IMG/VR virus record: IMGVR_UViG_3300044618_001825
Coordinates: 1-42,495 of that record
DNA: 42,495 nt
Reading direction: 5' to 3' (one strand)
DNA from: a virus
Below the pieces are notes generated by a model. The model ran no database searches and was not told the origin of the DNA. It saw only the letters and a program-made list of their open reading frames with translations. Both the position numbers and the translations under genes were made by a program. Position 1 is the first letter of the stretch, and every line of letters starts with the position of its first letter. Shown one piece after another: positions 12,832 to 24,460 of this stretch.

Positions 12832-12865
12832 ATGTCCGAATTATACGCATTTTGGATTAGACATT

Positions 12866-12887
12866 TGTCAGACCCCCATGCTATGCT
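12866..12887 (+). promoter_or_regulatory. TGTCA-N11-TATGCT promoter
   Basis: TGTCA (12866-12870), 11 bp, TATGCT (12882-12887), then ACGAAAGG before the ATG at 12923. Confidence 0.65.
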
Positions 12888-12922
12888 TAAGGTATAACAA
12901 ACAAACGAAAGGTAATCATCTA

Positions 12923-13093
12923 ATGAATACACTAGAACGAATTAGAAAAGAACAACAAGAGCGAAACGCTATCGCTCACGAAAAGGCTATGGCTAAGTCA
13001 CCTTGGATTAGAGAGAGCGTACAGGCTTTCCGCAACGCTACACCTGAGCAATTAGCACAGGTCGAGGCTATTCGCCTCAAGAGAGGCATGTGA
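12923..13093 (+). CDS. Hypothetical basic helical protein, 56 aa
   Basis: First gene of the rightward arm. MNTLERIRKEQQERNAIAHEKAMAKS... is a charged helix, rich in Arg/Lys/Glu. The ATG at 12923 follows a GAAAGG site; an upstream in-frame ATG lies inside the promoter and is not used. A CRP-type site overlaps its stop codon. Unknown function. Confidence 0.65.
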   Translation: MNTLERIRKEQQERNAIAHEKAMAKSPWIRESVQAFRNATPEQLAQVEAIRLKRGM

Positions 13094-13104
13094 CACACCT
13101 CACA
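13089..13104. promoter_or_regulatory. CRP/GlxR-type palindrome overlapping a stop codon
   Basis: TGTGA-CACACC-TCACA overlaps the end of the previous gene and lies 28 bases before the next TGTCA box. Confidence 0.7.
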
Positions 13105-13132
13105 GCGACACGCTAGCCCAACCTCCCCAATT

Positions 13133-13154
13133 TGTCAGACCCCCATGCTACAAT
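13133..13154 (+). promoter_or_regulatory. TGTCA-N11-TACAAT promoter
   Basis: TGTCA (13133-13137), 11 bp, TACAAT (13149-13154), then CGAAAGG before the ATG at 13187. Confidence 0.75.
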
Positions 13155-13186
13155 TACAGAATAACAACAACGAAAGGTCAGAATAA

Positions 13187-13300
13187 ATGACACTAGATGA
13201 ATACAAGCAAATGGTAGAGGCGCAACGCCTTGCCTCCCTAGCAATAGCCCTAGAGGCTTTGCGTAAGTCCGATACAATCGCTAAGGAGATGAATAAATAA
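13187..13300 (+). CDS. Hypothetical helical protein, 37 aa
   Basis: A 37-residue helix (MTLDEYKQMVEAQRLASLAIALEALRK...). It follows a TGTCA-N11 promoter and a GAAAGG site, and its stop overlaps the next start (TAATG). It leads a six-gene chain. Unknown function. Confidence 0.6.
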   Translation: MTLDEYKQMVEAQRLASLAIALEALRKSDTIAKEMNK

Positions 13301-13482
13301 TGTCATACGCATACTCATACGAAACTAATAGCGTATCTAAATGGGATACTATCCAATCAGATGTCGCAGACGCATACGCATACCTTGATGAGGTAGATGA
13401 GGAACAACCTCCACTAGATGAATTTGATGACTCAGATGATGAGGCACTAGCAAAACTTTACCAACTAACATGGGAGAACTAA
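13300..13482 (+). CDS. Hypothetical acidic protein, 60 aa
   Basis: A strongly acidic protein (DEVDEEQPPLDEFDDSDDEALAKLYQL). It could mimic DNA or act as an anti-repressor, but this is speculation from charge alone. Overlaps the previous gene by one base. Confidence 0.6.
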   Translation: MSYAYSYETNSVSKWDTIQSDVADAYAYLDEVDEEQPPLDEFDDSDDEALAKLYQLTWEN

Positions 13483-13484
13483 TA

Positions 13485-13604
13485 ATGATGTACCCAATGG
13501 ATACACTAGCCGACATGGCTAAGGCTAACGGATTTACTGTAACACCTGAACTACTAACACTACTAAACAAGTCCTATGAACTAGGCGTAGAGGATACTTA
13601 CTAA
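13485..13604 (+). CDS. Hypothetical protein, 39 aa
   Basis: A 39-residue product (MMYPMDTLADMAKANGFTVTPELLTLLNKSYELGVEDTY). TAATAATG links it to the neighbour before, TAATG to the one after. The helix pattern is faintly like a small helix-turn-helix, too short to call. Confidence 0.55.
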   Translation: MMYPMDTLADMAKANGFTVTPELLTLLNKSYELGVEDTY

Positions 13605-13759
13605 TGATAATCACTTACACACTTTGGCAAGGTAGCCAACTACTAAGCGTTAATAACAAGGCTACTAGCGCAGATGAATTGCTAACAGTAATGAACGAAC
13701 TAAATAAACTAGGTAAGGGTTTCACTTACAACATTAGAGAAGTAGAGGTAAATAAGTAA
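13604..13759 (+). CDS. Hypothetical protein, 51 aa
   Basis: A 51-residue beta-alpha-beta-like protein (MIITYTLWQGSQLLSVNNKATSADELLTVMNELNKL...FTYNIREVEV). One-base overlaps on both sides place it in a coupled operon. No family recognised. Confidence 0.6.
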   Translation: MIITYTLWQGSQLLSVNNKATSADELLTVMNELNKLGKGFTYNIREVEVNK

Positions 13760-13950
13760 TGACTATCGAACTAAATGAATACGGCTTTATGCTTGACATG
13801 GGTGATTTTATTTACTTATCCCTATCATGGGCTTTCCTTATCTTGTCCTCCGTTGTTTTTATCGGTTATAAGATTTATAAAAGAGTAAAGAATAATCGAA
13901 CACTAGGCAATTGCTTGCCTACTAATACTAATGATACATGGGGAGAGTAA
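13759..13950 (+). CDS. Single-pass membrane protein, 63 aa
   Basis: One clear transmembrane helix (IYLSLSWAFLILSSVVFIGYKIY, about 18-40) with a basic cytoplasmic flank (KRVKNNR). It is cotranscribed with other mini-genes. It may act at the host membrane, for example against superinfection, but there is no direct evidence. Confidence 0.6.
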   Translation: MTIELNEYGFMLDMGDFIYLSLSWAFLILSSVVFIGYKIYKRVKNNRTLGNCLPTNTNDTWGE

Positions 13951-14069
13951 TGAATAGACTACTTACTACACTAGTCCAATTAGGTATTGGTATTCCCGCC
14001 CTAATTATGCTCCGCCTTGTATGGCGTGAGATCGTAGCGGATTACCGAGAGTGGGCTAACTCACACTAG
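13950..14069 (+). CDS. Small membrane-associated protein, 39 aa
   Basis: A 39-residue protein with one hydrophobic segment (LVQLGIGIPALIMLRLVW) and a charged tail (REIVADYREWANSH). The start overlaps the previous stop. Last gene of the first rightward operon. Confidence 0.55.
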   Translation: MNRLLTTLVQLGIGIPALIMLRLVWREIVADYREWANSH

Positions 14070-14075
14070 CCTAAC

Positions 14076-14177
14076 GGCGTGTCGGCTTGACATTGTCAAG
14101 CTGGCCCGCAAGTACTTGCGGGAGTTATCCACAGGGTTACGGGGGTTATCCACAACCCCCAGGTTTTGCGACACGCC
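14076..14177. repeat. Intergenic element I: inverted repeat enclosing palindrome and DnaA-box pair
   Basis: GGCGTGTCG (14076-14084) and CGACACGCC (14169-14177) flank a hairpin CTTGACATTGTCAAG (14086-14100), a perfect 18-bp palindrome CCCGCAAGTACTTGCGGG (14105-14122) that may terminate the operon, and two DnaA boxes. A second copy of this layout is at 15080-15178. Confidence 0.8.
14125..14154 (+). promoter_or_regulatory. Pair of DnaA boxes, 21 bp apart
   Basis: TTATCCACA occurs at 14125-14133 and 14146-14154 on the same strand, with GTTACG between. Both match the classic nine-base DnaA consensus perfectly. Confidence 0.8.
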
Positions 14178-14185
14178 CGAGATTT

Positions 14186-14201
14186 TGTGATTACTATCAC
14201 A
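14186..14201. promoter_or_regulatory. CRP/GlxR-type palindrome
   Basis: TGTGA-TTACTA-TCACA, centred about 85 bases before the inferred transcription start of the next promoter. Confidence 0.75.
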
Positions 14202-14250
14202 TAGGCTGAGCGTCTCATTATTTGGAATTACTGGCTAGTAGGTAGATAAA

Positions 14251-14272
14251 TGTCAGACCCCCGTGGTAAAAT
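14251..14272 (+). promoter_or_regulatory. TGTCA-N11-TAAAAT promoter
   Basis: TGTCA (14251-14255), 11 bp, TAAAAT (14267-14272), followed by AGAAAGGTGG and the ATG at 14304. Confidence 0.65.
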
Positions 14273-14303
14273 ACTACCATAACGAAAAAGAAAGGTGGTC
14301 ACT

Positions 14304-14489
14304 ATGACTACACTAACAAATACACATACACACACTCCACACATGGAGAGCGTATCTACTACCTATGGCATGGGTGTAGATGTCGAATACACTTTCTGCG
14401 AAACATGCGAGCAGAACATAGATAGAGTCTATTTCTATGATGACTATGACCGCTTACCATTTTATTCCGATTGGAGTTTAACTAAATGA
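14304..14489 (+). CDS. Hypothetical protein with CxxC, 61 aa
   Basis: The protein has a Thr/His-rich N-terminus (MTTLTNTHTHTPHM) and FCETCEQN, a CxxC that could bind a metal, with an aromatic acidic tail (YFYDDYDRLPFY). ATG at 14304 is chosen because AAAGGTGG precedes it; an in-frame GTG at 14295 lies in that site. It opens a five-gene coupled operon. Confidence 0.6.
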   Translation: MTTLTNTHTHTPHMESVSTTYGMGVDVEYTFCETCEQNIDRVYFYDDYDRLPFYSDWSLTK

Positions 14490-14647
14490 AAACTAATTTT
14501 GAGGTAACGCAAGAAATAACAACTCTTGCTAAAAAGCACTATGGCGAAATGGATTTAGCCTTTAAGTGGGGTTGCGCTCAAGCGTTACTAAGCACTAAGC
14601 AATTAGAGATTATTCTAAACATACTAAAAGATAAGGAAACTAACTAA
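14486..14647 (+). CDS. Hypothetical protein, 53 aa
   Basis: A 53-residue helical protein (MKTNFEVTQEITTLAKKHYGEMDLAFKWGCAQALLSTKQLEIILNILKD...). The ATG overlaps the previous stop (ATGA). Unknown function. Confidence 0.6.
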   Translation: MKTNFEVTQEITTLAKKHYGEMDLAFKWGCAQALLSTKQLEIILNILKDKETN

Positions 14648-14788
14648 ATGGCTGTATTTAATTTTGATTTATCCGTTACTGTTGAGGCAGATGATTTTGA
14701 GTCTGCCTTATCATGGTTAAAGGTTGTTCCATTAGAGCGACTTGATTTTATTGTTGTTGATTATACCGAATTGGAGTTAAGCGAATGA
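14648..14788 (+). CDS. Hypothetical protein, 46 aa
   Basis: A compact beta-alpha-beta protein (MAVFNFDLSVTVEADDFESALSWLKVV...LDFIVVDYTELELSE). It directly follows the previous stop and overlaps the next start (ATGA). No family recognised. Confidence 0.55.
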   Translation: MAVFNFDLSVTVEADDFESALSWLKVVPLERLDFIVVDYTELELSE

Positions 14789-14979
14789 AATCAGATTTCG
14801 AAAAAGATTTAGAAATTAAAGAAAGCTTTATTGATTTACTAAATGATGTTTACCCTACTGTAAAAATTGGTTACTCTACTTTTACTCCCGCCGAAATTTT
14901 GGAATGTTGCGACCCAATCGCTTTTTCAATCGGACTAATTGAACATGAAGATTATTTAGCAGAAATGGAAAACGAATAA
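14785..14979 (+). CDS. Hypothetical acidic protein, 64 aa
   Basis: An acidic protein (MKSDFEKDLEIKESFIDLLNDVYPTVKIGYSTFTPAEILECCDPIAFSIGLIEHEDYL...), with a vicinal Cys pair. The YSTFTPAEILECCDPIAF segment resembles small phage proteins of unknown function. Coupled by ATGA to the gene before. Confidence 0.6.
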   Translation: MKSDFEKDLEIKESFIDLLNDVYPTVKIGYSTFTPAEILECCDPIAFSIGLIEHEDYLAEMENE

Positions 14980-15074
14980 TGGATTTTTTTGGATTTGAAA
15001 AAGCAATTGAAATTGATCATTTAACAGATGAGCAAATTCTAAAGCTTGAAGAAATTTTTAAAGATTTCGAATAA
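14979..15074 (+). CDS. Acidic helical mini-protein, 31 aa
   Basis: A 31-residue product (MDFFGFEKAIEIDHLTDEQILKLEEIFKDFE), strongly acidic and helical. It overlaps the previous stop by one base. Short, but the coupling supports it. Confidence 0.5.
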   Translation: MDFFGFEKAIEIDHLTDEQILKLEEIFKDFE

Positions 15075-15079
15075 ACAGC

Positions 15080-15178
15080 GGCGTGTCGACTTGACAAAAG
15101 TTGATGCGCCCGCAAAAGAGCGGGGTTATCCACAGGGTTACGGGGGTTATCCACAACCCCTGGAATTTGCGACACGCC
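15080..15178. repeat. Intergenic element II: second copy of the inverted repeat with DnaA boxes
   Basis: GGCGTGTCG (15080-15088) and CGACACGCC (15170-15178) again flank a GCCCGCAAAAG stretch, two DnaA boxes, GTTACG and CCCTGGAATTT. The layout matches element I almost base for base in its core. Confidence 0.8.
15126..15155 (+). promoter_or_regulatory. Pair of DnaA boxes, 21 bp apart
   Basis: Perfect TTATCCACA at 15126-15134 and 15147-15155, the same strand and spacing as at 14.1 kb. Confidence 0.8.
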
Positions 15179-15186
15179 CGAGATTT

Positions 15187-15202
15187 TGTGATTTTTATCA
15201 CA
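15187..15202. promoter_or_regulatory. CRP/GlxR-type palindrome
   Basis: TGTGA-TTTTTA-TCACA, centred about 85 bases before the inferred transcription start at about 15279. Confidence 0.75.
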
Positions 15203-15250
15203 CGACTTGAGCGTCTCAAAATGTGGAATTACTCGCCAGTAATGTGAAAA

Positions 15251-15272
15251 TGTCAGTGGCATAGGCTATAAT
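15251..15272 (+). promoter_or_regulatory. TGTCA-N11-TATAAT promoter
   Basis: TGTCA (15251-15255), 11 bp, TATAAT (15267-15272), followed by ACGAAAGG and the ATG at 15305. Confidence 0.8.
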
Positions 15273-15304
15273 TGCCAGTATCAACAAACGAAAGGTGACA
15301 ACTC

Positions 15305-15514
15305 ATGTCAGCAAAAGCATACACTATCGAAAGCCTCTTAGAGGGAAAACACTATCGCTCACACTCTCGCCATGACGAGGGAACTATCGTATACGCAACA
15401 AAGCGTGACGCAATTTGGTACGGAGAAAACCTAGAGGCTTACGCTATCGAGGTTCGCCCAACCCGTGGGATCAAAAACTTTTGGGCAACCATTGCGGTTA
15501 GGGTATCTGACTAA
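15305..15514 (+). CDS. Hypothetical protein, 69 aa
   Basis: A basic beta-rich protein (MSAKAYTIESLLEGKHYRSHSRHDEGTIVYATKRDAIWYGENLEAYAIEVRP...). It is a single-gene unit between two TGTCA-N11 promoters. No domain recognised. Confidence 0.65.
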   Translation: MSAKAYTIESLLEGKHYRSHSRHDEGTIVYATKRDAIWYGENLEAYAIEVRPTRGIKNFWATIAVRVSD

Positions 15515-15516
15515 TT

Positions 15517-15538
15517 TGTCAGTGCTATCCGCTATAAT
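15517..15538 (+). promoter_or_regulatory. TGTCA-N11-TATAAT promoter
   Basis: TGTCA (15517-15521), 11 bp, TATAAT (15533-15538), then ACGAAAGG and the ATG at 15567. It begins right after a stop codon. Confidence 0.8.
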
Positions 15539-15566
15539 TACAGAATAAACAAACGAAAGGAAAACT

Positions 15567-15731
15567 ATGTTAAACATAATCGACAAAACCGATTTCTATG
15601 AAATCGCAGACGAGCAACATTTTTGTTGTGATGAAAGTCAATTTAAGTATTACTGTATCGAACACCTAGAATTTATGGGTTGCTACTTTTGCGGATTTGA
15701 CTATGACAAAGATTGCGAGGAACAACACTAA
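15567..15731 (+). CDS. Cys/His-rich small protein, 54 aa
   Basis: The product has six cysteines and histidines: EQHFCCDES, YYCIEHLEF, GCYFCGFDYDKDCEEQH. CxxC plus CIEH could form a zinc site. First gene of a five- or six-gene coupled operon. Function unknown. Confidence 0.65.
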   Translation: MLNIIDKTDFYEIADEQHFCCDESQFKYYCIEHLEFMGCYFCGFDYDKDCEEQH

Positions 15732-15871
15732 TGATTAACTCAGTATTAACAATAGATTGCCAAGATTGCTTAGGTCATGGCGTAATCTTTTTTGGTGATG
15801 ATAATGATTTTGATTGCGAGCCTTGCGATTGTCAAGATGGCTCTTTATTTAAGAACGGGGAAAATGACTAA
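15731..15871 (+). CDS. DnaJ-type zinc-knuckle mini-protein, 46 aa
   Basis: IDCQDCLGHGVIFF...DCEPCDCQDG has two CxxC motifs with the CxxCxGHG pattern of DnaJ zinc fingers. It probably binds zinc. One-base overlaps on both sides. Confidence 0.6.
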   Translation: MINSVLTIDCQDCLGHGVIFFGDDNDFDCEPCDCQDGSLFKNGEND

Positions 15872-16077
15872 TGTACCAAATAACAATTTCCTACGATAGC
15901 AAGCCTATCCATTGGAATAAAAACTATGATGACGCTTTAGAAGCGTTCACCGCATTTCTTTCATTTACCGATTGGGGATTTGCTAACGAATACTCAACTG
16001 TAAATTTAATGACGCCAACTGGCAAGATGTACACAAAAACATTTTATCGTGAAGGTCGAAAGGTCGTAACAAAATGA
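15871..16077 (+). CDS. Hypothetical protein, 68 aa
   Basis: A beta-rich protein (MYQITISYDSKPIHWNKNYDDALEAFTAFLSFTDWGFANEYSTVNLMTPTGKMYTKTFYREG). Small proteins with this strand-helix-strand layout are common in phages, with no known function. It overlaps neighbours by 1 and 4 bases. Confidence 0.65.
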   Translation: MYQITISYDSKPIHWNKNYDDALEAFTAFLSFTDWGFANEYSTVNLMTPTGKMYTKTFYREGRKVVTK

Positions 16078-16265
16078 TGACAAGAAAAGATTATGTCGCA
16101 GTAGCAGAAATTTTAAACTTTGCTAGTGATAAGGCGCACCCTGCTTTATTTTCTAAAATTGTAAATGATTTCGCAGTTATGTTCGCAAAAGATAATGAGC
16201 GATTTGATGTAAACCGATTTCATAAAGCGTGTGGATACCATGTCACAAAATTCACTTCGAGATAA
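16074..16265 (+). CDS. Hypothetical protein, 63 aa
   Basis: A helical protein (MMTRKDYVAVAEILNFASDKAHPALFSKIVNDFAVMFAKDNERFDVNRFHKACGY). The KDYVA-(V/I)A ... DNE(R/K)FD-x-(N/D)RFxxACG pattern is common in small phage proteins of unknown role. The start overlaps the previous stop. Confidence 0.7.
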   Translation: MMTRKDYVAVAEILNFASDKAHPALFSKIVNDFAVMFAKDNERFDVNRFHKACGYHVTKFTSR

Positions 16266-16371
16266 AGTTAAACGCATACAGGAATTGCGTCGCAGTAATG
16301 CGGCGCAACCTGTACGCAATAAGAAAAAATATTTTAGAAAAATAAAACATAAAAATAAATTTGATCAATGA
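16240..16371 (+). CDS. Basic mini-protein, 43 aa
   Basis: A very basic product (MSQNSLRDKVKRIQELRRSN...RNKKKYFRKIKHKNKF), overlapping the preceding gene by 26 bases. No clear ribosome site; the charge would suit nucleic-acid binding. It may be spurious. Confidence 0.45.
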   Translation: MSQNSLRDKVKRIQELRRSNAAQPVRNKKKYFRKIKHKNKFDQ

Positions 16372-16375
16372 CGCT

Positions 16376-16456
16376 GCCCGCCCGTAAAGCTGCGGGGTTA
16401 TCCACAGGGTTACGGGCGTTATCCACAACCCCCTGGAATTTGTGAGATTAATCACA
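16376..16456. repeat. Intergenic element III: DnaA-box pair plus CRP-type site
   Basis: GCCCGCCCGTAAAG, then DnaA boxes at 16398-16406 and 16419-16427 (21 bp apart), GTTACG at 16409, CCTGGAATTT at 16432, and TGTGA-GATTAA-TCACA at 16441-16456. The flanking GGCGTGTCG arm is absent here. Confidence 0.8.
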
Positions 16457-16493
16457 AAATAAATTAGATAAAGCTTGGGCGTGTTGAGCAATT

Positions 16494-16515
16494 TGTCAGT
16501 GGCATAGGCTATAAT
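16494..16515 (+). promoter_or_regulatory. TGTCA-N11-TATAAT promoter
   Basis: TGTCA (16494-16498), 11 bp, TATAAT (16510-16515), followed by ACGAAAGG and the ATG at 16545. Confidence 0.8.
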
Positions 16516-16544
16516 ACTCTTATACCAACAACGAAAGGCAACAA

Positions 16545-16748
16545 ATGAGAATAGAACACAACCTGAAGTTCGTAACAGAGTTTAAGGACGGCCATCCAGT
16601 AACTAAGCAAATAGAAATGCTTGATGAGGATACTCGTATCTTTATGCTAGAGTCAATGCTAAAAGATTTAGTCGGTAGCCGACTACAACCAATTCTTGAT
16701 GAGATAAATGCTAATGGCTCATACGCAATTCTTAAGGTGGCAGAATAA
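16545..16748 (+). CDS. Hypothetical protein, 67 aa
   Basis: An acidic protein (MRIEHNLKFVTEFKDGHPVTKQIEMLDEDTRIFMLESMLKDLVGSRLQPILDEI...). It overlaps the next gene by one base. No family recognised. Confidence 0.65.
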   Translation: MRIEHNLKFVTEFKDGHPVTKQIEMLDEDTRIFMLESMLKDLVGSRLQPILDEINANGSYAILKVAE

Positions 16749-17011
16749 TGGGATACAATACAGCATTAGATTTAACTGAATTAGATTTAGAGGTAGCACT
16801 AGGTTATCACTTACAGGGTAATCATTACCCGCCCGTCCCACTTTCTATGGTACAGCCTTGTATCGAGGCTATTGATGCTTACTATGATGAGGATTATAAT
16901 AAGTTGATCGAAATGCCTGAAGGCGTATCTTATAAGGGTGACTCTCATGCGCCAGCGTGGGCTATTATCGAACAGCACCACTTAGACGCTTGGCTACCTG
17001 AAAGTGACTAA
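16748..17011 (+). CDS. Hypothetical acidic protein, 87 aa
   Basis: The 87-residue product has LDLEVALGYHLQGNHYPPVPLSMVQPCIEAIDAYYDEDYNKLIEMPEGVSYKG, a layout seen in small phage proteins of unknown role. A CRP-type palindrome overlaps its stop codon. Confidence 0.65.
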   Translation: MGYNTALDLTELDLEVALGYHLQGNHYPPVPLSMVQPCIEAIDAYYDEDYNKLIEMPEGVSYKGDSHAPAWAIIEQHHLDAWLPESD

Positions 17012-17018
17012 GGTCACA
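17003..17018. promoter_or_regulatory. CRP/GlxR-type palindrome, one mismatch
   Basis: AGTGA-CTAAGG-TCACA, overlapping the previous stop, centred about 74 bases before the inferred transcription start near 17085. Confidence 0.55.
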
Positions 17019-17056
17019 CAATAACTTTCTCAAATAATGAGATAGGGCTAGACTAA

Positions 17057-17078
17057 TGTCAGACCCCAATGCTATAAT
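17057..17078 (+). promoter_or_regulatory. TGTCA-N11-TATAAT promoter
   Basis: TGTCA (17057-17061), 11 bp, TATAAT (17073-17078), driving the gene at 17109. Confidence 0.8.
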
Positions 17079-17108
17079 TACCAACCTAACAAAGAAAAGA
17101 GGCAATAA

Positions 17109-17291
17109 ATGACAATCAACGACAAGTTGTATCAGGTAGGCGATTTATTCACTACCCTTAAGTCAAAGAAAACAGGTGTGATTAAAGAAATCCACCCACA
17201 AACATCTGGCTCGGTGCGTGTGCTATTGGAAATGCCAAACAAGGAAACTCGTTGGACTTCCGTATCCGCTCAAACACTACTAGGCGTATAA
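17109..17291 (+). CDS. Hypothetical small beta protein, 60 aa
   Basis: The product (MTINDKLYQVGDLFTTLKSKKTGVIKEIHPQTSGSVRVLLEMPNKETRWTSV) looks like a small SH3-like barrel: strand, G-x-x-F, (S/T)-G-x-(I/V)-x-E-(I/V), then RVLLE. It could bind nucleic acid or protein. Single-gene unit with its own promoter. Confidence 0.65.
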   Translation: MTINDKLYQVGDLFTTLKSKKTGVIKEIHPQTSGSVRVLLEMPNKETRWTSVSAQTLLGV

Positions 17292-17316
17292 TCTAAAGGC
17301 AGGGGGGTCGCAGAAA

Positions 17317-17338
17317 TGTCAGACCTCCCTGCTATAAT
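17317..17338 (+). promoter_or_regulatory. TGTCA-N11-TATAAT promoter
   Basis: TGTCA (17317-17321), 11 bp, TATAAT (17333-17338), driving the gene at 17378 with ACGAAAGAAGG as ribosome site. Confidence 0.8.
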
Positions 17339-17377
17339 TACTTCATCAACCCAACCCACAACGAAAGAAGGAAACAA

Positions 17378-17800
17378 ATGGCTAGAGGAAAAGCAATCTC
17401 GGTGAAAATCCCAACTCAGCGAGTAATCAAGGCTTTGGAAACAAAGTTGGCACAACTAAATAAAGACTTCGCATCACAAGAAGCAAACGAAGCAAAGTAT
17501 AACAAGCAGGTAGAAGCGTGGAAAAAGGAAATTGGAAAGTGGGCTATTGCTAACTTCTCAAAGGCTGAAAACCTACGCACAAACTATCGCAACTGGAACA
17601 ACACTCTCAATGTTGATTTTGACATCATCACAAAGGAAGGAAACTTCCCTGCTGAACCTGAGAAGGACTACGAAGTAATCCACCGCCACTCATACAATGA
17701 GATGAAAGAGGAAATGGAAAACGCAATTCGTATTCTTAAAATGACAGATGAGGAAGTTGTTAATACCAGCACTTACAATGCGGTTGCTCGTTATCTGTAA
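17378..17800 (+). CDS. Hypothetical coiled-coil protein, 140 aa
   Basis: The protein begins MARGKAISVKIPTQRVIKALETKLAQLNKDFASQEANEAKYNKQVEAWKKEIGKWA, with a long charged helix (about 14-60) and a second helix near the C-terminus (MKEEMENAIRILKMTDEEVVNTSTYNAVARYL). Phage proteins of this kind are common and uncharacterised. The start is fixed by ribosome site and promoter. Confidence 0.7.
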   Translation: MARGKAISVKIPTQRVIKALETKLAQLNKDFASQEANEAKYNKQVEAWKKEIGKWAIANFSKAENLRTNYRNWNNTLNVDFDIITKEGNFPAEPEKDYEVIHRHSYNEMKEEMENAIRILKMTDEEVVNTSTYNAVARYL

Positions 17801-17871
17801 ATAATCCAACGACCTGAGTATGTCGCCAAACTGCTCTCCCTTTTGGGACAACTACTAACAAAGGCAACAAA

Positions 17872-18126: not shown

Positions 18127-18157
18127 AGATCTAACACTAGCTGCATATCCTGCAGCT

Positions 18158-18235: not shown

Positions 18236-18273
18236 TGGATCAATTCGGACATATTGTATCTAATCCTAGACAA

Positions 18274-19334: not shown

Positions 19335-19381
19335 ATAAAAATAATCCTGAGCAAGATTTAAAACTGCTCACATTTTTTCTT

Positions 19382-19458: not shown

Positions 19459-19459
19459 A

Positions 19460-19520
19460 GCGCCCTCAAAGCTAAGGGGGCAAAAAGTGTGTTACGACTC
19501 ACATTTAAATTCCCTGGAAT
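19460..19520. repeat. Intergenic element V (no DnaA box)
   Basis: GCGCCCTCAAAGC, GTTACGAC (19491) and CCCTGGAATC (19512) share the spacing of the other elements (23 bases from GTTACG to CTGG) but lack DnaA boxes and the CRP-type site. Confidence 0.65.
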
Positions 19521-19530
19521 CTATTGTAAA

Positions 19531-19552
19531 TGTCAGTGGGGTCCTGTATAAT
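19531..19552 (+). promoter_or_regulatory. TGTCA-N11-TATAAT promoter, leaderless geometry
   Basis: TGTCA (19531-19535), 11 bp, TATAAT (19547-19552). The next ATG (19560) is only 7 bases past the -10, so the message would start at or next to the start codon. Confidence 0.75.
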
Positions 19553-19559
19553 TCTGTAC

Positions 19560-20234
19560 ATGACCAACGAACTAGTATCAAGCGTGTACACATTTGTCTG
19601 TGACCCAGATGAGTGTGATTGTTTAATCCAATTAACATCATCTGATGGATTTGGCTTTCCATCAGGTGTGACAGAACTCACATGCCCGTGTGGCCGTAAG
19701 ACCACATTAGTGTCAGTGGAGCATGCTACAATTACATCCTTAAACCAAACGAAAGAAGGAAGCAATATGGACGGAATGACAGTAGAAAACCTGCCTCTAT
19801 CAGATGCAGAGAAGTACAACCCTGACCAATTAGTTACATACAAAGTAATCCGTGGTTATTCGGATGCTGAATATGCTACAGATAAAGTTCGCAACATTGA
19901 ATACGAACTGCATAATGGTCGCACAAATTCTAAGGCAGTCTCATCTTTACAGAATAAGATTGGCTTAGTTAAAGATATTATTTCAGAGGCATATGCTGAT
20001 TCAGAAGACCAAGAAACTTTGCAAGCAATTGCAGAAGCGCTTGAGATTGAATTAATTAGAGAGATTGAATGGTCTGCATCTATTGAAGTTAGCGGAACTA
20101 TTTCAGTCAACCTACTTGAGGATACTCATTTTGACTTAGATTCAGAAATTGAAGATGCTCTTTATGCTGATTCACACAATGGCAACATTGAAGTTGTTGA
20201 CCAAGAAATCTGCAACATTAGGGAGAACTGCTAA
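19560..20234 (+). CDS. Zinc-domain protein, long form (224 aa) with nested short form
   Basis: Reading from a likely leaderless ATG at 19560, the N-terminal part has VYTFVCDPDECDCLIQL...ELTCPCGRKTTL, a small Cys cluster suited to zinc. The same frame continues without a stop through a second promoter and GAAAGAAGG site to an ATG at 19767, from which a 155-residue protein (MDGMTVENLPLSDAEKYNPDQLVTYKVIRGYSD...) is made. That C-terminal part is acidic with no known domain. Two products from one frame, or an in-frame fusion of two genes, are both possible. Confidence 0.6.
   Translation: MTNELVSSVYTFVCDPDECDCLIQLTSSDGFGFPSGVTELTCPCGRKTTLVSVEHATITSLNQTKEGSNMDGMTVENLPLSDAEKYNPDQLVTYKVIRGYSDAEYATDKVRNIEYELHNGRTNSKAVSSLQNKIGLVKDIISEAYADSEDQETLQAIAEALEIELIREIEWSASIEVSGTISVNLLEDTHFDLDSEIEDALYADSHNGNIEVVDQEICNIRENC
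19721..19742 (+). promoter_or_regulatory. TGTCA-N11-TACAAT promoter inside a reading frame
   Basis: TGTCA (19721-19725), 11 bp, TACAAT (19737-19742), then ACGAAAGAAGG and ATG at 19767. The promoter is itself in the long reading frame of the gene it nests in. Confidence 0.75.
19767..20234 (+). CDS. Hypothetical acidic protein, short form (155 aa)
   Basis: The short product has its own promoter and a good ribosome site (GAAAGAAGG, 7 bases before ATG). It is acidic, with IRGYSDAEYATDKVRNIEYELHNGRTNSKAVSSLQNKIGLVKDIISEAYADSEDQETLQAIAEAL, helices typical of many phage proteins. It is coupled to the next gene by TAATG. Function unknown. It shares its frame and stop with the 224-residue long form. 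Confidence 0.7.
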   Translation: MDGMTVENLPLSDAEKYNPDQLVTYKVIRGYSDAEYATDKVRNIEYELHNGRTNSKAVSSLQNKIGLVKDIISEAYADSEDQETLQAIAEALEIELIREIEWSASIEVSGTISVNLLEDTHFDLDSEIEDALYADSHNGNIEVVDQEICNIRENC

Positions 20235-20437
20235 TGTATTTTGAGTTGACTGCTCCTGATAGGCTATCCATGGAGATGGCCTATTGGGATGCACAAATTA
20301 TTGGGCTGGACCCGCAAGCAATGTCACCGTTGACATTCAACATTGGAACTGGTAGTATTGAGAAAGTAAGTAGAATTCGTGATAAGTATAACTTAACTGA
20401 ATCTTACATATCAGACTACGAAACCACAGGTTATTAA
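20234..20437 (+). CDS. Hypothetical protein, 67 aa
   Basis: The product (MYFELTAPDRLSMEMAYWDAQIIGLDPQAMSPLTFNIGTGSIEKVSRIRDKYNLTESYISDYETTGY) resembles uncharacterised small phage proteins. It overlaps the preceding stop. Confidence 0.65.
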   Translation: MYFELTAPDRLSMEMAYWDAQIIGLDPQAMSPLTFNIGTGSIEKVSRIRDKYNLTESYISDYETTGY

Positions 20438-20446
20438 GGAGAAATT

Positions 20447-20593
20447 ATGTCAGACTATAAAGATGGTTGGGACGATGGGTATAAGTTTGCCCGTGATGAA
20501 ATCATGGAAAAGTTATCAGAGATTGATATCAACGACATTGATTCCTGGATCCTTGATCGTCTTTCTGAGATGATTGAAGGTGGAGCACTATGA
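20447..20593 (+). CDS. Hypothetical acidic protein, 48 aa
   Basis: An acidic product (MSDYKDGWDDGYKFARDEIMEKLSEIDINDIDSWILDRLSEMIEGGAL). The G-W-x-D-G-Y-x-x-(A/G)R-x-E motif is frequent in tiny phage proteins. AAGGAG precedes it and the stop overlaps the next ATG. Confidence 0.65.
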   Translation: MSDYKDGWDDGYKFARDEIMEKLSEIDINDIDSWILDRLSEMIEGGAL

Positions 20594-20799
20594 CAATGGA
20601 AGATCTAACAAGATGGATAGCATGTGACCAATGTGGCACAGCCCAAGCAATGTATATGGTTAAACTAGTAGATGGTGAGCTTTTCTTTTGCGGTCACCAC
20701 TACAACGCAAGCAAGCGTGGCCTTGACAAGGTCGCATACGAAGTGATAGAATTAAACAAAACGGAAGAAGCAATCCCTCAACTAGAAACGGCGGAATAA
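20590..20799 (+). CDS. DUF7455-like zinc-binding protein
   Basis: The 69-residue product has CDQCGTAQAMYMVKLVDGELFFCGHHYN: two cysteines, then CGHH, the layout of the DUF7455 family common in actinobacteria and their phages. It probably binds one zinc ion. Function unknown. ATGA overlap with the preceding gene. Confidence 0.8.
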   Translation: MTMEDLTRWIACDQCGTAQAMYMVKLVDGELFFCGHHYNASKRGLDKVAYEVIELNKTEEAIPQLETAE

Positions 20800-20800
20800 A

Positions 20801-21166
20801 ATGGGCGACAGAGCAAACTTTGGATTCAGAGATTCCAAGGAGAATGTACTATTTCTATATGGACACTGGGCTGGGCATAATATGCTAGCCAAGTTGGCCA
20901 ATGCTGTGCAGGCTGCAGAGCCTCGCTGGCAGGATGAATCATATGCAACACGCATTGCTATATCTAATCTAATTGGAGAAGACTGGACTGAAAAAACAGG
21001 CTGGGGTATCTACATTAATCAATTAGGAGATAATGAGCATAAGGTGCCTGTTATTGATTGGTCCAATCAAACTTTTACACTGTATGAAGAGGACCTGAGC
21101 ACGGTAGTGTTTACCTCGTCCCTTGCAGCATTCGTAGATAAATACAGTCGACTAGTTATGGTATAA
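20801..21166 (+). CDS. Hypothetical MGDRANFGF-type protein, 121 aa
   Basis: The protein begins MGDRANFGFRDSKENVLFLYGHWAGHNMLAKLANAV, an opening seen in conserved actinophage proteins of unknown function (GDRAN, then YGHW). It ends with ENDLSTVVFTSSLAAFVDKY-like beta-helix. Last gene of the operon before a terminator. Confidence 0.75.
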   Translation: MGDRANFGFRDSKENVLFLYGHWAGHNMLAKLANAVQAAEPRWQDESYATRIAISNLIGEDWTEKTGWGIYINQLGDNEHKVPVIDWSNQTFTLYEEDLSTVVFTSSLAAFVDKYSRLVMV

Positions 21167-21171
21167 TTAGA

Positions 21172-21193
21172 CTAGGACTTTGGTCCTGGTTTT
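21172..21193 (+). terminator. Hairpin with T-run after the MGDRANFGF gene
   Basis: CTAGGAC (21172-21178), loop TTTG, GTCCTGG (21183-21189), followed by TTTT. A TATAAT (21162-21167) overlaps the stop codon just before. Confidence 0.7.
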
Positions 21194-21316
21194 AATAGGA
21201 AATGAAATGGTGCGTCTATTAGTCTTTAGGGCCAGGCGCTAAGTAAAGCGGTTTATTTCTTTCGTTGGAAATCAGCAGCCATATTCATAACCCCCAGCAT
21301 AGCTGGGGGTTTTCTA
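21194..21316 (+). ncRNA. Gene-free stretch, possible small RNA ending in a terminator
   Basis: No reading frame of use is seen in these 120 bases, which end in a strong terminator. A TATAAT at 21162 could start a transcript before the first hairpin. The conserved spacing between two terminators suggests a stable RNA, but no known family is recognised. Confidence 0.3.
21289..21313 (+). terminator. Strong Rho-independent terminator
   Basis: AACCCCCAGC, loop ATA, GCTGGGGGTT (10-bp stem), then TT. Ends the transcript before element VI. Confidence 0.85.
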
Positions 21317-21318
21317 TT

Positions 21319-21399
21319 GCCCGCAAAGACTTGAGGGTAGCATGTTTGTTTTACGACGTCAAGTTAATTTTCCCAGGAATTTGTGTGATCTTGACCACA
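21319..21399. repeat. Intergenic element VI with CRP-type site
   Basis: GCCCGCAAAGAC, TTTACGAC (21350), CCCAGGAATTT (21372), and TGTGA-TCTTGA-CCACA (21384-21399, one mismatch in the right half). No DnaA boxes. Confidence 0.65.
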
Positions 21400-21445
21400 T
21401 AGCTTGGAAAATGTGGTGTGAAACACACCTATTTGCTATTCCAAA

Positions 21446-21467
21446 TGTCAGTGGTCCATTGTATAAT
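21446..21467 (+). promoter_or_regulatory. TGTCA-N11-TATAAT promoter
   Basis: TGTCA (21446-21450), 11 bp, TATAAT (21462-21467), followed by ACGAAAGG and the ATG at 21495. Confidence 0.8.
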
Positions 21468-21494
21468 TGGAACATATCAACGAAAGGATATAAA

Positions 21495-22229
21495 ATGCCA
21501 AATTGGGTATTTAATGGATTAACTATTGAAGGTAATCCTGAGCAAGTAAAATCTCTAATCAAACAAATGAATAAGCCATTTGTTTATTCTATTACTGCAG
21601 TAGGTGATTTATCATATGATGTCAAGCAGACTAAGTATGTTAATCCTATCTTTGCTTTTCATAATATCTATAACTATAGAGATGCTGGTATTACTGATGA
21701 GGTATATCATGGACAGCCTCCTCGTTCCACCGACTTTTCTCAGGCAATGAAGTTTGAGACCAATGACTGGTACAACTTTAATGTGCGTGAGTGGGGAACC
21801 AAGTGGGATGTTGCTGTAGCCGAGGGTAATAAGTATCCTGATACAACTATTGAAGAAGCAGAAAACGGTGAGAACTATGTAGTTCATTACAACTTTAACA
21901 CTGCATGGTCACGACCTCTTGGTGCTATCTCTAAACTATCTGCACAATACCCAACACTACTATTTACTTTATCATATGAAGAAGAAACAGGTTGGGGTGG
22001 GGAAATGGAATTCCTCCGTGGAGAAGTTATATCAGAATCAGAATACGATAACATGTGCCGTGATTGTGATGCAACTGACCAAATGGAATACTGCGACAAT
22101 GACTGCGGTGAAATCTGTGGCAACTGCAACTGGCTAGGCAATGCTGACCTAGAGGCTGTAGCAATTTGTCAGACCCATAAGATATACTTAGACACTAAAG
22201 TACCCGAATATAGAAAGGCGGAAGCATAA
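21495..22229 (+). CDS. Api92-like protein with ferredoxin-like fold and C-terminal Cys cluster
   Basis: The 244-residue protein opens MPNWVFNGLTIEGNPEQVKSLIKQM, the standard start of the Api92-like ferredoxin-fold family in phages and mobile elements, and keeps the FHNIYNY...WY-x-FN-x-x-EWGTKWD block (about 105-150). The last 50 residues add CRDCDATDQMEYCDNDCGEICGNCNW, a zinc-ribbon-like cluster. Activity unknown. ATG at 21495 chosen by the GAAAGG site; the longer frame starts inside element VI. A promoter for the next gene is embedded in its 3' end. Confidence 0.78.
   Translation: MPNWVFNGLTIEGNPEQVKSLIKQMNKPFVYSITAVGDLSYDVKQTKYVNPIFAFHNIYNYRDAGITDEVYHGQPPRSTDFSQAMKFETNDWYNFNVREWGTKWDVAVAEGNKYPDTTIEEAENGENYVVHYNFNTAWSRPLGAISKLSAQYPTLLFTLSYEEETGWGGEMEFLRGEVISESEYDNMCRDCDATDQMEYCDNDCGEICGNCNWLGNADLEAVAICQTHKIYLDTKVPEYRKAEA
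22167..22188 (+). promoter_or_regulatory. TGTCA-N11-TATACT promoter inside the Api92-like gene
   Basis: TGTCA (22167-22171), 11 bp, TATACT (22183-22188); GAAAGG and the ATG at 22229 follow. Confidence 0.6.
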
Positions 22230-22441
22230 TGGAAGCATTTACAGATACAGTAGGAGAACATATCCTTGGAGCAATTCAAGTAGATATTGAGCAACATCTC
22301 TTTGAACAATGGAACAGCAAAAATTTAGATGAGGGCAGCGATTATGCTGAATATATGTTCATGCAATTTGCTCCTGATAACTTAAAACAATCATACAATG
22401 AGTACTATGGTTATATTGAAGGAGATGAATTCCTCCTATGA
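22229..22441 (+). CDS. Hypothetical acidic protein, 70 aa
   Basis: The product (MEAFTDTVGEHILGAIQVDIEQHLFEQWNSKNLDEGSDYAEYMFMQFAPDN...) is acidic and helical. It heads a chain of coupled genes that runs to 24068. Unknown function. Confidence 0.65.
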   Translation: MEAFTDTVGEHILGAIQVDIEQHLFEQWNSKNLDEGSDYAEYMFMQFAPDNLKQSYNEYYGYIEGDEFLL

Positions 22442-22584
22442 TTACCAGCCAAGAACTAATTGATTATATCTATGATGACAACTTAATCCATTTTGATGAT
22501 AGAGATACATCAGATGATTGTGATTGTCACATTCATATAACACTTAATACTATGATTAAATATATGGAGGCAATAGAATGCTAG
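22438..22584 (+). CDS. Hypothetical protein with DCDCH motif, 48 aa
   Basis: MITSQELIDYIYDDNLIHFDDRDTSDDCDCHIHITLNTMIKYMEAIEC has a Cys/His patch (CDCHIH). It overlaps neighbours by ATGA and by 7 bases. Confidence 0.55.
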   Translation: MITSQELIDYIYDDNLIHFDDRDTSDDCDCHIHITLNTMIKYMEAIEC

Positions 22585-22751
22585 GTTATACTAAAGATGA
22601 TCTTGATGAGATGATTAACTCAGTACATGATGCTAAGTTATTTTATCTTAGAACCCCGTCCGATTTAATGGACAAGTCAATATTAAATGAAGGCTTGTTA
22701 AAAACAAATGACTTCCTCCAGGGGCTTTGGGCGGAGGGTTATTTTGACTAA
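22578..22751 (+). CDS. Hypothetical acidic protein, 57 aa
   Basis: MLGYTKDDLDEMINSVHDAKLFYLRTPSDLMDKSILNEGLLKTNDFLQGLWAEGYFD. The start overlaps the previous gene. Similar YT-x-(D/E)DL-x-x-M-(I/V) openings occur in small phage proteins; function unknown. Confidence 0.6.
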   Translation: MLGYTKDDLDEMINSVHDAKLFYLRTPSDLMDKSILNEGLLKTNDFLQGLWAEGYFD

Positions 22752-22950
22752 GTCATCACATTTTATGGAGTATCTAAAGATACATAAGATTAGTTTAGAA
22801 CAAGATTTAGAAGATGCTAGAAATAATATTCCTATTCCTGAAGATGAATACTTCGAATCAGATAGTTATTATATGGGTGCCATTGATACTATGGAACATA
22901 TTTTGTCAGTGGCTACTGATATAATGATTGATAACGAAAGGGTATATTAA
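22744..22950 (+). CDS. Hypothetical acidic protein, 68 aa, TTG start
   Basis: TTG at 22744 is chosen because GGAGGG lies just before it and because it overlaps the previous stop by 8 bases; earlier starts would overlap by more than 40. The product (MTKSSHFMEYLKIHKISLEQDLEDARNNIPIPEDEYFESDSYYMGAIDTMEHIL) is acidic and helical. Its last codons contain the next promoter. Confidence 0.6.
   Translation: MTKSSHFMEYLKIHKISLEQDLEDARNNIPIPEDEYFESDSYYMGAIDTMEHILSVATDIMIDNERVY
22904..22925 (+). promoter_or_regulatory. TGTCA-N11-TATAAT promoter inside a gene
   Basis: TGTCA (22904-22908), 11 bp, TATAAT (22920-22925), followed by AACGAAAGGG and the ATG at 22950. Confidence 0.7.
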
Positions 22951-23153
22951 TGAACATATCATCTAGAGAAGTTACTTATCGTTCCGCCGTTGAACAAATA
23001 TTTTTTGAGGACGGGACAGAATTGGTAATCACAATTGGTGCTCCTGCCGAAGGCGGAGGAGATATCGATATTGAATATGATTGGGTAGAAGGAAAGCCTG
23101 ATTGGGCAAACAACTTAAATGAATCAACACTAGTGAACTATGAGGTAATATAA
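22950..23153 (+). CDS. Hypothetical acidic beta protein, 67 aa
   Basis: MNISSREVTYRSAVEQIFFEDGTELVITIGAPAEGGGDIDIEYDWVEGKPDW... is acidic and beta-rich. TAATG links it to both neighbours. Confidence 0.65.
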   Translation: MNISSREVTYRSAVEQIFFEDGTELVITIGAPAEGGGDIDIEYDWVEGKPDWANNLNESTLVNYEVI

Positions 23154-23443
23154 TGAATCAAGAAGACATTGGGCTCCCTCCGCACCTACAGCGTTTGGTT
23201 AATGCGGGTGTTAGCGGATTAGATATAATGCACGGAGAACTAAAGAACTTAATGCTAATTGCCGAGCAAGATTTAAAGGACGCATTAGCACAGGAGGAGT
23301 TGTCTGAAGAGGCAATGGATTCTATGGTCCGAACAGAATGTGAAGGACGACTAGATACTCTAGTCGAACTATATCAACTAACATATGAACTATCATTTGC
23401 AATTCAATCAAGAATAGATTTGGAGTTTGCTAATGAAGCCTGA
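23153..23443 (+). CDS. Hypothetical acidic helical protein, 96 aa
   Basis: A helical protein (LQRLVNAGVSGLDIMHGELKNLMLIAEQDLKDALAQEEL...RLDTLVELYQLTYELSFAIQSRI). No family recognised. Coupled to both neighbours. Confidence 0.65.
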   Translation: MNQEDIGLPPHLQRLVNAGVSGLDIMHGELKNLMLIAEQDLKDALAQEELSEEAMDSMVRTECEGRLDTLVELYQLTYELSFAIQSRIDLEFANEA

Positions 23444-23759
23444 CGATAAAGATAAACTAAACAAGTGTTTAGAGATTCTAGACAGCACTGACCTAGGTCT
23501 ATCATTAGTTTGGTTGTGGACTTGGTCAACAATTAACAACATATTTGAGGATGAGACCTACAAGCAGAACTGCACCCTAGATGACATGTGGGGCCACCTC
23601 TGTGAGGCTGTGGAGGCTGGTATGGGGTTCTCTCTGGAGTACGGTGCCGAACAGCACAACGAAGATGTCCTTGAATGGATGATGAATCGTGAATACATTG
23701 TGGACACAATGTTTGAGGAAGATGAAGAAGAGGAGGACGACGAAGATGAAGATGAGTGA
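23433..23759 (+). CDS. Hypothetical protein with polyacidic tail, 108 aa
   Basis: The 108-residue product has a folded helical part (LGLSLVWLWTWSTINNIFEDETYKQNCTLDDMWGHLCEAVEAG) and ends in EEDEEEEDDEDEDE. Acidic tails can mimic DNA; here that is only a possibility. ATG at 23433 follows GGAG; a TTG two codons earlier is less likely. Confidence 0.65.
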   Translation: MKPDDKDKLNKCLEILDSTDLGLSLVWLWTWSTINNIFEDETYKQNCTLDDMWGHLCEAVEAGMGFSLEYGAEQHNEDVLEWMMNREYIVDTMFEEDEEEEDDEDEDE

Positions 23760-23889
23760 TAAGTACTTAAACGATCAACTTAGTAAAGCCCAAAAGCTTT
23801 TGTGGGGTGGGTCCGAAACAGAAAACATCGAGGCACACAACATCATTGCTAAACTAATTAAAGACAAGATAGAACAGGTGGAACTATGA
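23746..23889 (+). CDS. Hypothetical protein, 47 aa
   Basis: MKMSDKYLNDQLSKAQKLLWGGSETENIEAHNIIAKLIKDKIEQVEL. The ATG at 23746 lies 9 bases after AGGAGG; the ATG at 23752 is an alternative. It is read in another frame across the acidic tail codons of the preceding gene. Confidence 0.55.
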   Translation: MKMSDKYLNDQLSKAQKLLWGGSETENIEAHNIIAKLIKDKIEQVEL

Positions 23890-24068
23890 CTAAACAGTTT
23901 AAAGTATATGGCGACACCATTCAGGAATTTTACATTGTAGTAGAAGCCAAGGACAGCGATGAGGCATGGTACAAGGCAGTAGCCGCACCTAAGAAAGAAT
24001 GGCAAAAGGGTGCCAATCGTAAAGATAAGATAGAGCCATACCAAGTAGAAGAACTAACAACTGAATAA
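23886..24068 (+). CDS. Hypothetical small protein, 60 aa
   Basis: MTKQFKVYGDTIQEFYIVVEAKDSDEAWYKAVAAPKKEWQK... has the strand-helix layout (V/I)EA-x-(D/N)-x-(D/E)EA(W/I) common in DpnD/PcfM-like small proteins. Last gene of the chain, followed by a dyad. Confidence 0.6.
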   Translation: MTKQFKVYGDTIQEFYIVVEAKDSDEAWYKAVAAPKKEWQKGANRKDKIEPYQVEELTTE

Positions 24069-24080
24069 AGATAGGTTGGG

Positions 24081-24107
24081 CCGTTATGGACAATTCGGAC
24101 ATAACGG
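24081..24107. promoter_or_regulatory. Inverted repeat enclosing an AATTCGGACAT motif
   Basis: CCGTTATG (24081-24088) and CATAACGG (24100-24107) form a dyad after the last gene of the chain; no T-run follows, so an operator is as likely as a terminator. Confidence 0.45.
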
Positions 24108-24152
24108 TCATAATCTAAGGGCACGGGCAAAAATTTTGCTTTACGGCACCTA

Positions 24153-24181
24153 TTTACAAATCGCCGAAATTCGGATATAAT
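24153..24181 (+). promoter_or_regulatory. Canonical promoter of the Lsr2-domain gene
   Basis: TTTACA (24153-24158), 17 bp, TATAAT (24176-24181). This is the only gene in the rightward arm with a clear ordinary promoter and no TGTCA box. Confidence 0.65.
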
Positions 24182-24214
24182 ATATATAACAAAGATCTAG
24201 AAAGGATCAAACAA

Positions 24215-24367
24215 ATGACATCAACACCAACAACAACTCGTGAGTACCTCAAGACCCAGGGAATTTCTGTGGGCAAGCGTGGCCGCTTTTCAGCTGCAGC
24301 TCTAGGCGTTATCAGCAAGGCAGCACAAGAGGGCGTAGTCTTCACAGACAAGAAGAACGTCAAGTAA
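24215..24367 (+). CDS. Lsr2-type C-terminal DNA-binding domain mini-protein, 50 aa
   Basis: After MTSTPTTT, the product reads REYLKTQGISVGKRGRFSAAALGVISKAAQ, which matches the Lsr2 C-terminal domain pattern (R-x-W/Y-(A/L)-x-x-x-G-x-x-V-x-x-RGR-(I/F)-x-x-x-(V/L)-x-x-x-(Y/I)-x-x-A), with RGR as the AT-hook-like DNA contact. The N-terminal dimerisation domain of Lsr2 is missing. It may bind AT-rich DNA without bridging, and so compete with host Lsr2 silencing or regulate phage genes. It has its own promoter, an AAAGGATC site and a strong terminator. Confidence 0.7.
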   Translation: MTSTPTTTREYLKTQGISVGKRGRFSAAALGVISKAAQEGVVFTDKKNVK

Positions 24368-24381
24368 TAAACTAAGTGTGG

Positions 24382-24422
24382 GGTTCCTCCTCTCTGTGGG
24401 AAAACGGGAAAGGGGAGGAACC
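24382..24422 (+). terminator. Long-stem terminator after Lsr2-domain gene
   Basis: GGTTCCTCCTC (24382-24392) pairs with GGGGAGGAACC (24412-24422), an 11-bp stem with one G-T pair and a 19-base loop. Confidence 0.7.
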
Positions 24423-24438
24423 TCGCTTCATTTACAAA

Positions 24439-24460
24439 TGTCAGTGGTCAATGGTATAAT
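24439..24460 (+). promoter_or_regulatory. TGTCA-N11-TATAAT promoter
   Basis: TGTCA (24439-24443), 11 bp, TATAAT (24455-24460), then AACGAAAGG and the ATG at 24482. Last of this promoter class. Confidence 0.8.

Follow-up and report, generated by a model that had tools for sequence, protein, structure and literature searches.

In the middle promoters of phage T4, MotA and AsiA appropriate the host's sigma factor: the host polymerase works with an activator element near -30 and a -10 element, and no -35 is used. In actinobacteria, the promoters that depend on PafBC (RecA-NDp promoters) have the consensus tTGTCRgtg-8nt-TannnT and need no -35 (PMC5656591). PafBC is a heterodimer of WYL-domain proteins that is activated by single-stranded DNA. 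The helix-turn-helix of PafB reads the motif at -26, PafC contacts domain 4 of sigma-A, and the heterodimer is inserted between that domain, which usually contacts the -35, and the DNA (PMC11804915). RecA-NDp promoters are known outside mycobacteria (PMC8223512), including in Streptomyces (PMC5087735). Here we analyze fifteen sites in a virus record of 42,495 bases (IMGVR_UViG_3300044618_001825; "the window"). We argue that they are very probably promoters of the PafBC type, to be read through the PafBC of the host.

The fifteen sites match TGTCAG-N10-TANNNT and lie at 12866-24460, all on the plus strand (Table 1). The first-pass annotation, which was made from the letters of the window, had described a class of promoters with TGTCA exactly 11 bases before the -10 hexamer. 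All fifteen are indeed present, and the spacing is 11 in every one (14 of the start coordinates were exact; the one given as 19721 should be 19711). On both strands of the window together, the strict pattern has 17 matches, versus 0.54 expected and at most 2 in any of 100 shuffles. The remaining two matches, at 85 (plus strand) and 42181 (minus strand), are compatible with chance, and the reversed pattern has no matches in the window. For the block that holds the fifteen sites, 400 first-order Markov shuffles gave a mean of 0.04 sites and a maximum of 1. The annotation also stated that most sites are followed by ACGAAAGG and an ATG. This describes ribosome sites of the GAAAG type, which are downstream of 13 of the 15, better than it describes the exact octamer ACGAAAGG, which is downstream of 9. 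Its statement that the other arms of the genome use TTGACA-N17/18 is only partly supported: there are two perfect (12/12) matches in 25000-42495, but the frequency of sigma-70-like matches there is no higher than in shuffled sequence (68 vs. 65.3).

Relatives were fetched with the DUF932 protein that is encoded in the block (18327-19334), not with the motif. This gave 268 records in IMG/VR, of which we kept 80 (L001-L080). Pieces that were fetched by motif (L081-L199, L308-L344, and, among the long relatives discussed below, L115, L125, and L157) were left out of the counts of enrichment, profile, CRP boxes, LexA boxes, and the fifth base on these 80 relatives. Megablast of positions 12000-25000 against the phage collection gave no match.

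Among the 80 relatives, a spacing of 11 separates TGTCAG from one of six strong -10 hexamers on the same strand in 930 cases, and no other spacing between 5 and 24 has more than 11 cases. On the opposite strand, the highest count is 24, at a spacing of 17. With a looser pattern, all 81 records (the 80 relatives and the window) have at least 5 sites; in total, the block strand has 1138 and the opposite strand 39. The strict pattern was also counted in 14 relatives that are long (105-117 kb), three of which were found by motif; each has 10-22 matches on the block strand and 0-1 on the opposite strand. Among the matches listed for ten of these genomes, all but 0-1 of the block-strand sites per genome are clustered in one stretch of ~9-15 kb, which runs across the contig ends in two of the ten. 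The observation made in the annotation is confirmed. A composite pattern of the promoter and the ribosome site ACGAAAGG has at least 120 matches in viral contigs and none in genome contigs, so the host cannot be read from binned phage contigs.

We built a profile from 263 contexts of the window's clade that are less than 85% identical. It has A or T at -31 to -29, then TGTCAG, and then TATAAT, TACAAT, or TATACT. There is a G at -23 in 94% of the contexts, and the -10 is extended (TGN) in 159 of them. As the annotation had noted, there is no conserved -35 (positions -36 to -33 have 0.01-0.14 bit each), and TGTCA lies at about -28 to -24, which coincides with the -26 element of PafBC. When the fifth base of TGTCA was not fixed, it was A in 958 sites of the 80 relatives, G in 67, C in 2, and T in 1; the second most variable of the five positions is position 3, with 27 changes.

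We identify these sites as PafBC-type because the spacing in the published consensus is the 11-base spacing seen here, and because the sole tolerated change, from A to G at the fifth base, matches the R of the consensus. The count at the fifth base strengthens this reading. Judged by its letters and its spacing, the promoter class itself is already known: it is the same as the PafBC promoter published for mycobacteria and other actinobacteria, with a TGTCR core, 11 bases to TAnnnT, an element at -26, and no -35. The annotation's view that the class is specific to phages does not survive, as the same motif precedes recA in bacterial genomes (see below). Its broader idea, that host polymerase reads a separate class of promoters with the help of an additional factor, is upheld as an interpretation. 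It had thought of an unknown activator that binds TGTCA; an activator still seems right, but there is a known candidate. The phage promoters do differ from known PafBC promoters: they form arrays of 10-22 in one block, their -10 is stronger, and CRP-type boxes are added; also, the clade of the window lacks LexA boxes near the motifs. In the open-licence PMC literature, we did not find a paper title on the use of PafBC promoters by phages.

We infer that the hosts are acI actinobacteria because of the whiB gene, the kinship with actinophages, and the match to the motif before recA. Freshwater phages with whiB have been assigned to actinobacteria, and at least 36 of them to acI (PMC6802176). A 16S stretch of acI led to 17 contigs, and 12 acI genomes were chosen, including Planktophila versatilis, P. 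lacus, IMCC26103, and LanE43. TGTCAG-N10-TANNNT is found upstream of recA in 10 of the 12, with TG after TGTCAG in 7 of the 10. The -10 of acI recA is weaker than the phage hexamers, which are near consensus. The core of a LexA box (GAAC-N4-GTTC) starts 24 bases past the first T of the motif in acI recA. This is 2 bases past the -10 hexamer and ~260-300 bases upstream of the start motif of RecA (L289-L298). With its core so close to the -10, LexA would block a start by PafBC directly. In three acI genomes, a PafBC-type promoter also precedes a gene that we recognized as carD (L257, L263, and L277, ~1501) and that presumably encodes the polymerase-binding factor, which might connect PafBC to general transcription in acI.

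WYL proteins were found in 11 of the 12 acI genomes, and in each of the 11 there is an adjacent pair at a distance of about 0.9 kb. In the loci that we inspected by eye, we take the neighbors of the pair to be trmI and tatC. In one genome, the pair matches the solved structures of PafB and PafC in PDB (E = 1.7e-35 and 4.6e-29), and the stretch RMFER is identical in this pair and in the solved PafBC. By count, we equate the arginines of RMFER with R44 and R48 in the Arthrobacter structure, which have been proposed to contact DNA (PMC6789036).

We also looked for regulators in the phages themselves. No WYL protein and no CRP (HTH_Crp_2) was found in 15 phage records, and no Sigma70_r2 in 17; absence carries little weight in the window and the other records that are fragments, and the 14 relatives are long. 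For the records searched, we rejected a phage-encoded WYL protein, sigma-70 factor, or CRP as the regulator. Another sigma factor had been one of the annotation's suggestions, and no phage-encoded one turned up in the 17 records. As the phage records yielded neither a PafBC gene nor a sigma factor gene, the phages would use the factor of the host. In this they would differ from T4, which supplies its own activator; the phage of the window appears to use the stress regulator of its host. WhiB, in contrast, has one match in each of the 15 records. The WhiB of the window matches 158 named actinophage records, all at under 60% identity and none named Planktophila. Relatives in Streptomyces phages are at 43-48% identity (40 hits listed).

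Farther from the window, we scanned 15 cultured actinophages and eight distant contigs. The cultured phages have 0-3 matches each (Jay2Jay, 1; Coruscant, 3; Francob, 0). Thirteen of them, which were matched by DUF932 and infect Streptomyces, Arthrobacter, Microbacterium, Mycobacterium, or Gordonia, have 0-2, versus 0-3 per strand for a reversed control; for these thirteen and for the distant contigs, only A or G was allowed at the fifth base. The eight distant contigs, which were picked by a motif scan, have 5-30 sites on one strand. For instance, G042 (the contig of L329) has 25 sites at 5097-20536, and 14 of these read TGTCG. Among the pieces of these contigs, one has a DUF932 protein at 51% identity and seven have no protein of the block; the exact CRP box is absent from all of these pieces. 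We had considered L119, L168, and L191 to be unrelated phages, but after comparison with G001 we call them distant: L119 shares three small open reading frames with G001, and the contig of L191 (G029) is distantly related to it, with ~50% identity in DUF932 and 36-52% in structural genes. The array may track the host group more than a single phage lineage; with a biased sample, this is a lead.

The annotation did not mention the CRP-type boxes. TGTGA-N6-TCACA, with at most one mismatch, occurs 12 times in the window versus 1.7 expected, and 11 of the 12 are upstream of ten of the 15 promoters (exact at seven of the ten). The centers of these boxes are at -63.5 to -95.5, with the start site assumed to be 7 bases past the -10. 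Of the 295 distinct contexts with an exact box in the relatives, 267 are at most 120 bp upstream of a motif. Their centers are mostly at -63.5/-64.5, -73.5/-74.5, -84.5/-85.5, and -95.5, with an off-phase group of 31 contexts at -69.5/-70.5. Near the motifs, the spacer of the box is 6 bases in 251 contexts, 1 base in 10, and 8 bases in 1. Many of these contexts are homologous copies and not independent events, and the boxes are found mainly in the clade of the window and its nearer relatives. A CRP family protein (HTH_Crp_2) was found in each of 10 acI genomes. It contains GASRETVNKAL, a stretch typical of regulators of the TGTGA-N6-TCACA box. We suggest that ten of the 15 promoters receive class I activation by host CRP. 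The resemblance to class I CRP promoters lies in TGTGA-N6-TCACA boxes at helical steps upstream. But here the core is of the PafBC type, and, with the assumed starts, the centers are 2-3 bp further upstream than in E. coli.

The strict LexA box (CGAAC-N4-GTTCG) was not found near the motif in any of the 81 records of the window's clade, and looser forms were found in 1 of 56 and 3 of 68. The clade of the window looks as if it has the activator half of the host's control of recA without the repressor half.

Could the motif have another reader? A phage adaptor, either a WhiB-like protein (as the annotation proposed) or an unrecognized small protein, might bind TGTCA and recruit host polymerase, and so imitate or displace PafBC. 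WhiB proteins bind region 4 of sigma-A, every phage record searched has a WhiB, and several genes in the block have no known function. But an adaptor would have to copy the host's PafBC element, including the spacing and the A-or-G position. WhiB relatives are also present in Streptomyces phages, and the two that we checked as whole genomes, Jay2Jay and Francob, have just 1 and 0 motif matches and no array, which weakens the case for WhiB as the reader. Overall, an adaptor seems unlikely to us. We give still less credence to the idea that these are extended -10 promoters for plain sigma-A polymerase, independent of PafBC, with TGTCAG as a spacer element that has no dedicated reader. The near-consensus -10 hexamers and the frequent TGN would fit such promoters, but the fixed distance from TGTCAG to the -10 would not. 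Also, acI recA pairs TGTCAG with a weaker -10, and in the distant phages that were picked by motif, TG is at -15/-14 in 28 of 168 contexts, versus 149 of 168 with TG directly after TGTCAG. Finally, another host activator such as ClgR might read the same motif. A report that ClgR recognizes the P1 promoter region of recA is cited in PMC5656591, but a -26 position without a -35 suits the structure of PafBC, and we consider ClgR very improbable.

Other observations count against host PafBC as the reader, or against acI as the host. TG follows TGTCAG in only 112 of the 263 clade contexts, and AC and TC are common, while the consensus has gtg; the TG is also missing from 3 of the 10 acI recA motifs. 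The motif is missing before recA in two of the 12 acI genomes: G021, in which no WYL protein was matched (0.9 Mb assembled), and G026, where WYL genes are present. The strong -10 of the phage promoters may fire partly without PafBC. The GC content of the phage is 0.376 (0.40 in the block), versus 0.45-0.48 in ten acI coding loci. Two cultured phages of Planktophila (acI) are within 2% of the GC content of their host; these phages, of 39 kb, encode whiB and a sigma-70 factor, which was not found in the phages here, and they have a metagenomic relative, KU886271 (PMC10202952). Streptomyces has RecA-NDp promoters (PMC5087735), yet the Streptomyces relatives that we tested lack the array. Lastly, 5 of 9 distant pieces (L119, L332, L318, L309, and L311) include motifs that have CGAAC-N4-GTTCG at 33-65 bases upstream, so freedom from LexA is not general; joint control by LexA and PafBC is possible in those distant phages. 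The gap in GC content and these LexA boxes weaken both the host assignment and the wider claim below.

If host PafBC is the reader, these promoters might work as follows. Infection, or breakage of host DNA, would yield single-stranded DNA, which would activate PafB-PafC. The heterodimer would sit between region 4 of sigma and the DNA and read TGTCAG at about -26, in place of a -35, and the host's sigma-A RNA polymerase would then open the promoters and switch on the early block. The CRP-type boxes would add a class I CRP input at ten of the 15. Compared to acI recA, the phage promoters would have a near-consensus and often extended (TGN) -10 and, in the clade of the window, no LexA box nearby. 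The dependence on DNA damage, the timing, and the binding of PafBC to phage promoters are predicted from sequence. In other words, these phage genes appear to be wired to the host's alarm for DNA damage. More tentatively, we speculate that phages from several divergent lineages, which infect the most abundant freshwater bacteria, use PafBC as an early switch with single-stranded DNA as the signal, and that the clade of the window has omitted the LexA brake and added an energy input via CRP. Arrays of 15-30 strong sites may also divert PafBC and polymerase from the repair genes of the host. If this is correct, then the early program of a large group of uncultured actinophages has a named transcription factor, and gene expression in phages is coupled to a sensor of DNA damage that acts through sigma adaptation. 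Arrays of TGTCR-N11-TANNNT would also give a sequence rule by which such phages, and their early blocks, could be found in metagenomes.

The nearest named phages are the Stanwilliamsviridae, with the best DUF932 at ~50% identity and the best RNR at ~66%. In Jay2Jay, one of the Boydwoodruffvirinae (Streptomyces BE phages), the DUF932 gene is inside a direct terminal repeat, which is exactly 11,438 bases long. Terminal repeats of 10-12 kb are described for this cluster of Streptomyces phages (PMC8612146). RNR, the DUF932 block, and WhiB are in the same order in Jay2Jay and in the window, although on the complementary strand in Jay2Jay. BE phages differ in having Streptomyces hosts and no promoter array, as the whole-genome counts for Jay2Jay and Coruscant show. 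Based on gene order, the block seems to be the positional equivalent of the terminal repeat of the BE phages, and because it lies at that place, it is probably early or pre-early.

Table 1. Promoters, CRP-type boxes, and other features of the window.
Feature	Positions	Strand	Remarks
Block of small genes	12866-24826	+	served by the 15 promoters
PafBC-type promoter 1	12866-12887	+	TGTCAGACCCCCATGC-TATGCT
PafBC-type promoter 2	13133-13154	+	
PafBC-type promoter 3	14251-14272	+	
PafBC-type promoter 4	15251-15272	+	TGTCAGTGGCATAGGC-TATAAT
PafBC-type promoter 5	15517-15538	+	
PafBC-type promoter 6	16494-16515	+	
PafBC-type promoter 7	17057-17078	+	
PafBC-type promoter 8	17317-17338	+	
PafBC-type promoter 9	18274-18295	+	upstream of DUF932 gene
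PafBC-type promoter 10	19531-19552	+	
PafBC-type promoter 11	19711-19732	+	
PafBC-type promoter 12	21446-21467	+	
PafBC-type promoter 13	22167-22188	+	within end of open reading frame 21342-22229
PafBC-type promoter 14	22904-22925	+	within end of open reading frame 22708-22950
PafBC-type promoter 15	24439-24460	+	
CRP-type box (TGTGA-N6-TCACA)	12791-12806		center -95.5 of promoter 1
CRP-type box	12816-12831		center -70.5 of promoter 1; off-phase relative to the other boxes
CRP-type box	13089-13104		center -64.5 of promoter 2
CRP-type box	14186-14201		center -85.5 of promoter 3
CRP-type box	15187-15202		center -84.5 of promoter 4
CRP-type box	16441-16456		center -73.5 of promoter 6
CRP-type box, one mismatch	17003-17018		center -74.5 of promoter 7
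CRP-type box	18220-18235		center -74.5 of promoter 9
CRP-type box, one mismatch	19488-19503		center -63.5 of promoter 10
CRP-type box	19667-19682		center -64.5 of promoter 11
CRP-type box, one mismatch	21384-21399		center -82.5 of promoter 12
DUF932 gene	18327-19334	+	in block; query used to find relatives
tRNA-Ile	12128-12203	-	anticodon TAT
tRNA-Asp	19382-19458	+	inside block, between DUF932 gene and promoter 10

The block also contains DnaA boxes, which, like the CRP-type boxes, are new relative to the annotation. A 54-base module is present in four copies (14106-14159, 15107-15160, 16379-16432, and 18158-18211), each upstream of a promoter. The four modules have seven exact DnaA boxes (TTATCCACA), versus 0.55 expected. 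In the relatives, DnaA boxes are at most 200 bp upstream of a motif in 177 distinct contexts and elsewhere in 31. These boxes might be either replication start sites or elements for transcription that is controlled by DnaA.

The open reading frame at 17378-17800 had a Pfam match below the cut-off, which we treated as noise. On the minus strand, 28862-36993 holds a cluster that encodes several 2OG-Fe(II) oxygenase-like proteins and one protein each of the Asp/Asn hydroxylase-like, radical SAM/SPASM, ferritin-like, and cupin types. Also on the minus strand, 40435-40992 encodes an HslV-like peptidase (phrog_1040, E = 6.3e-22).

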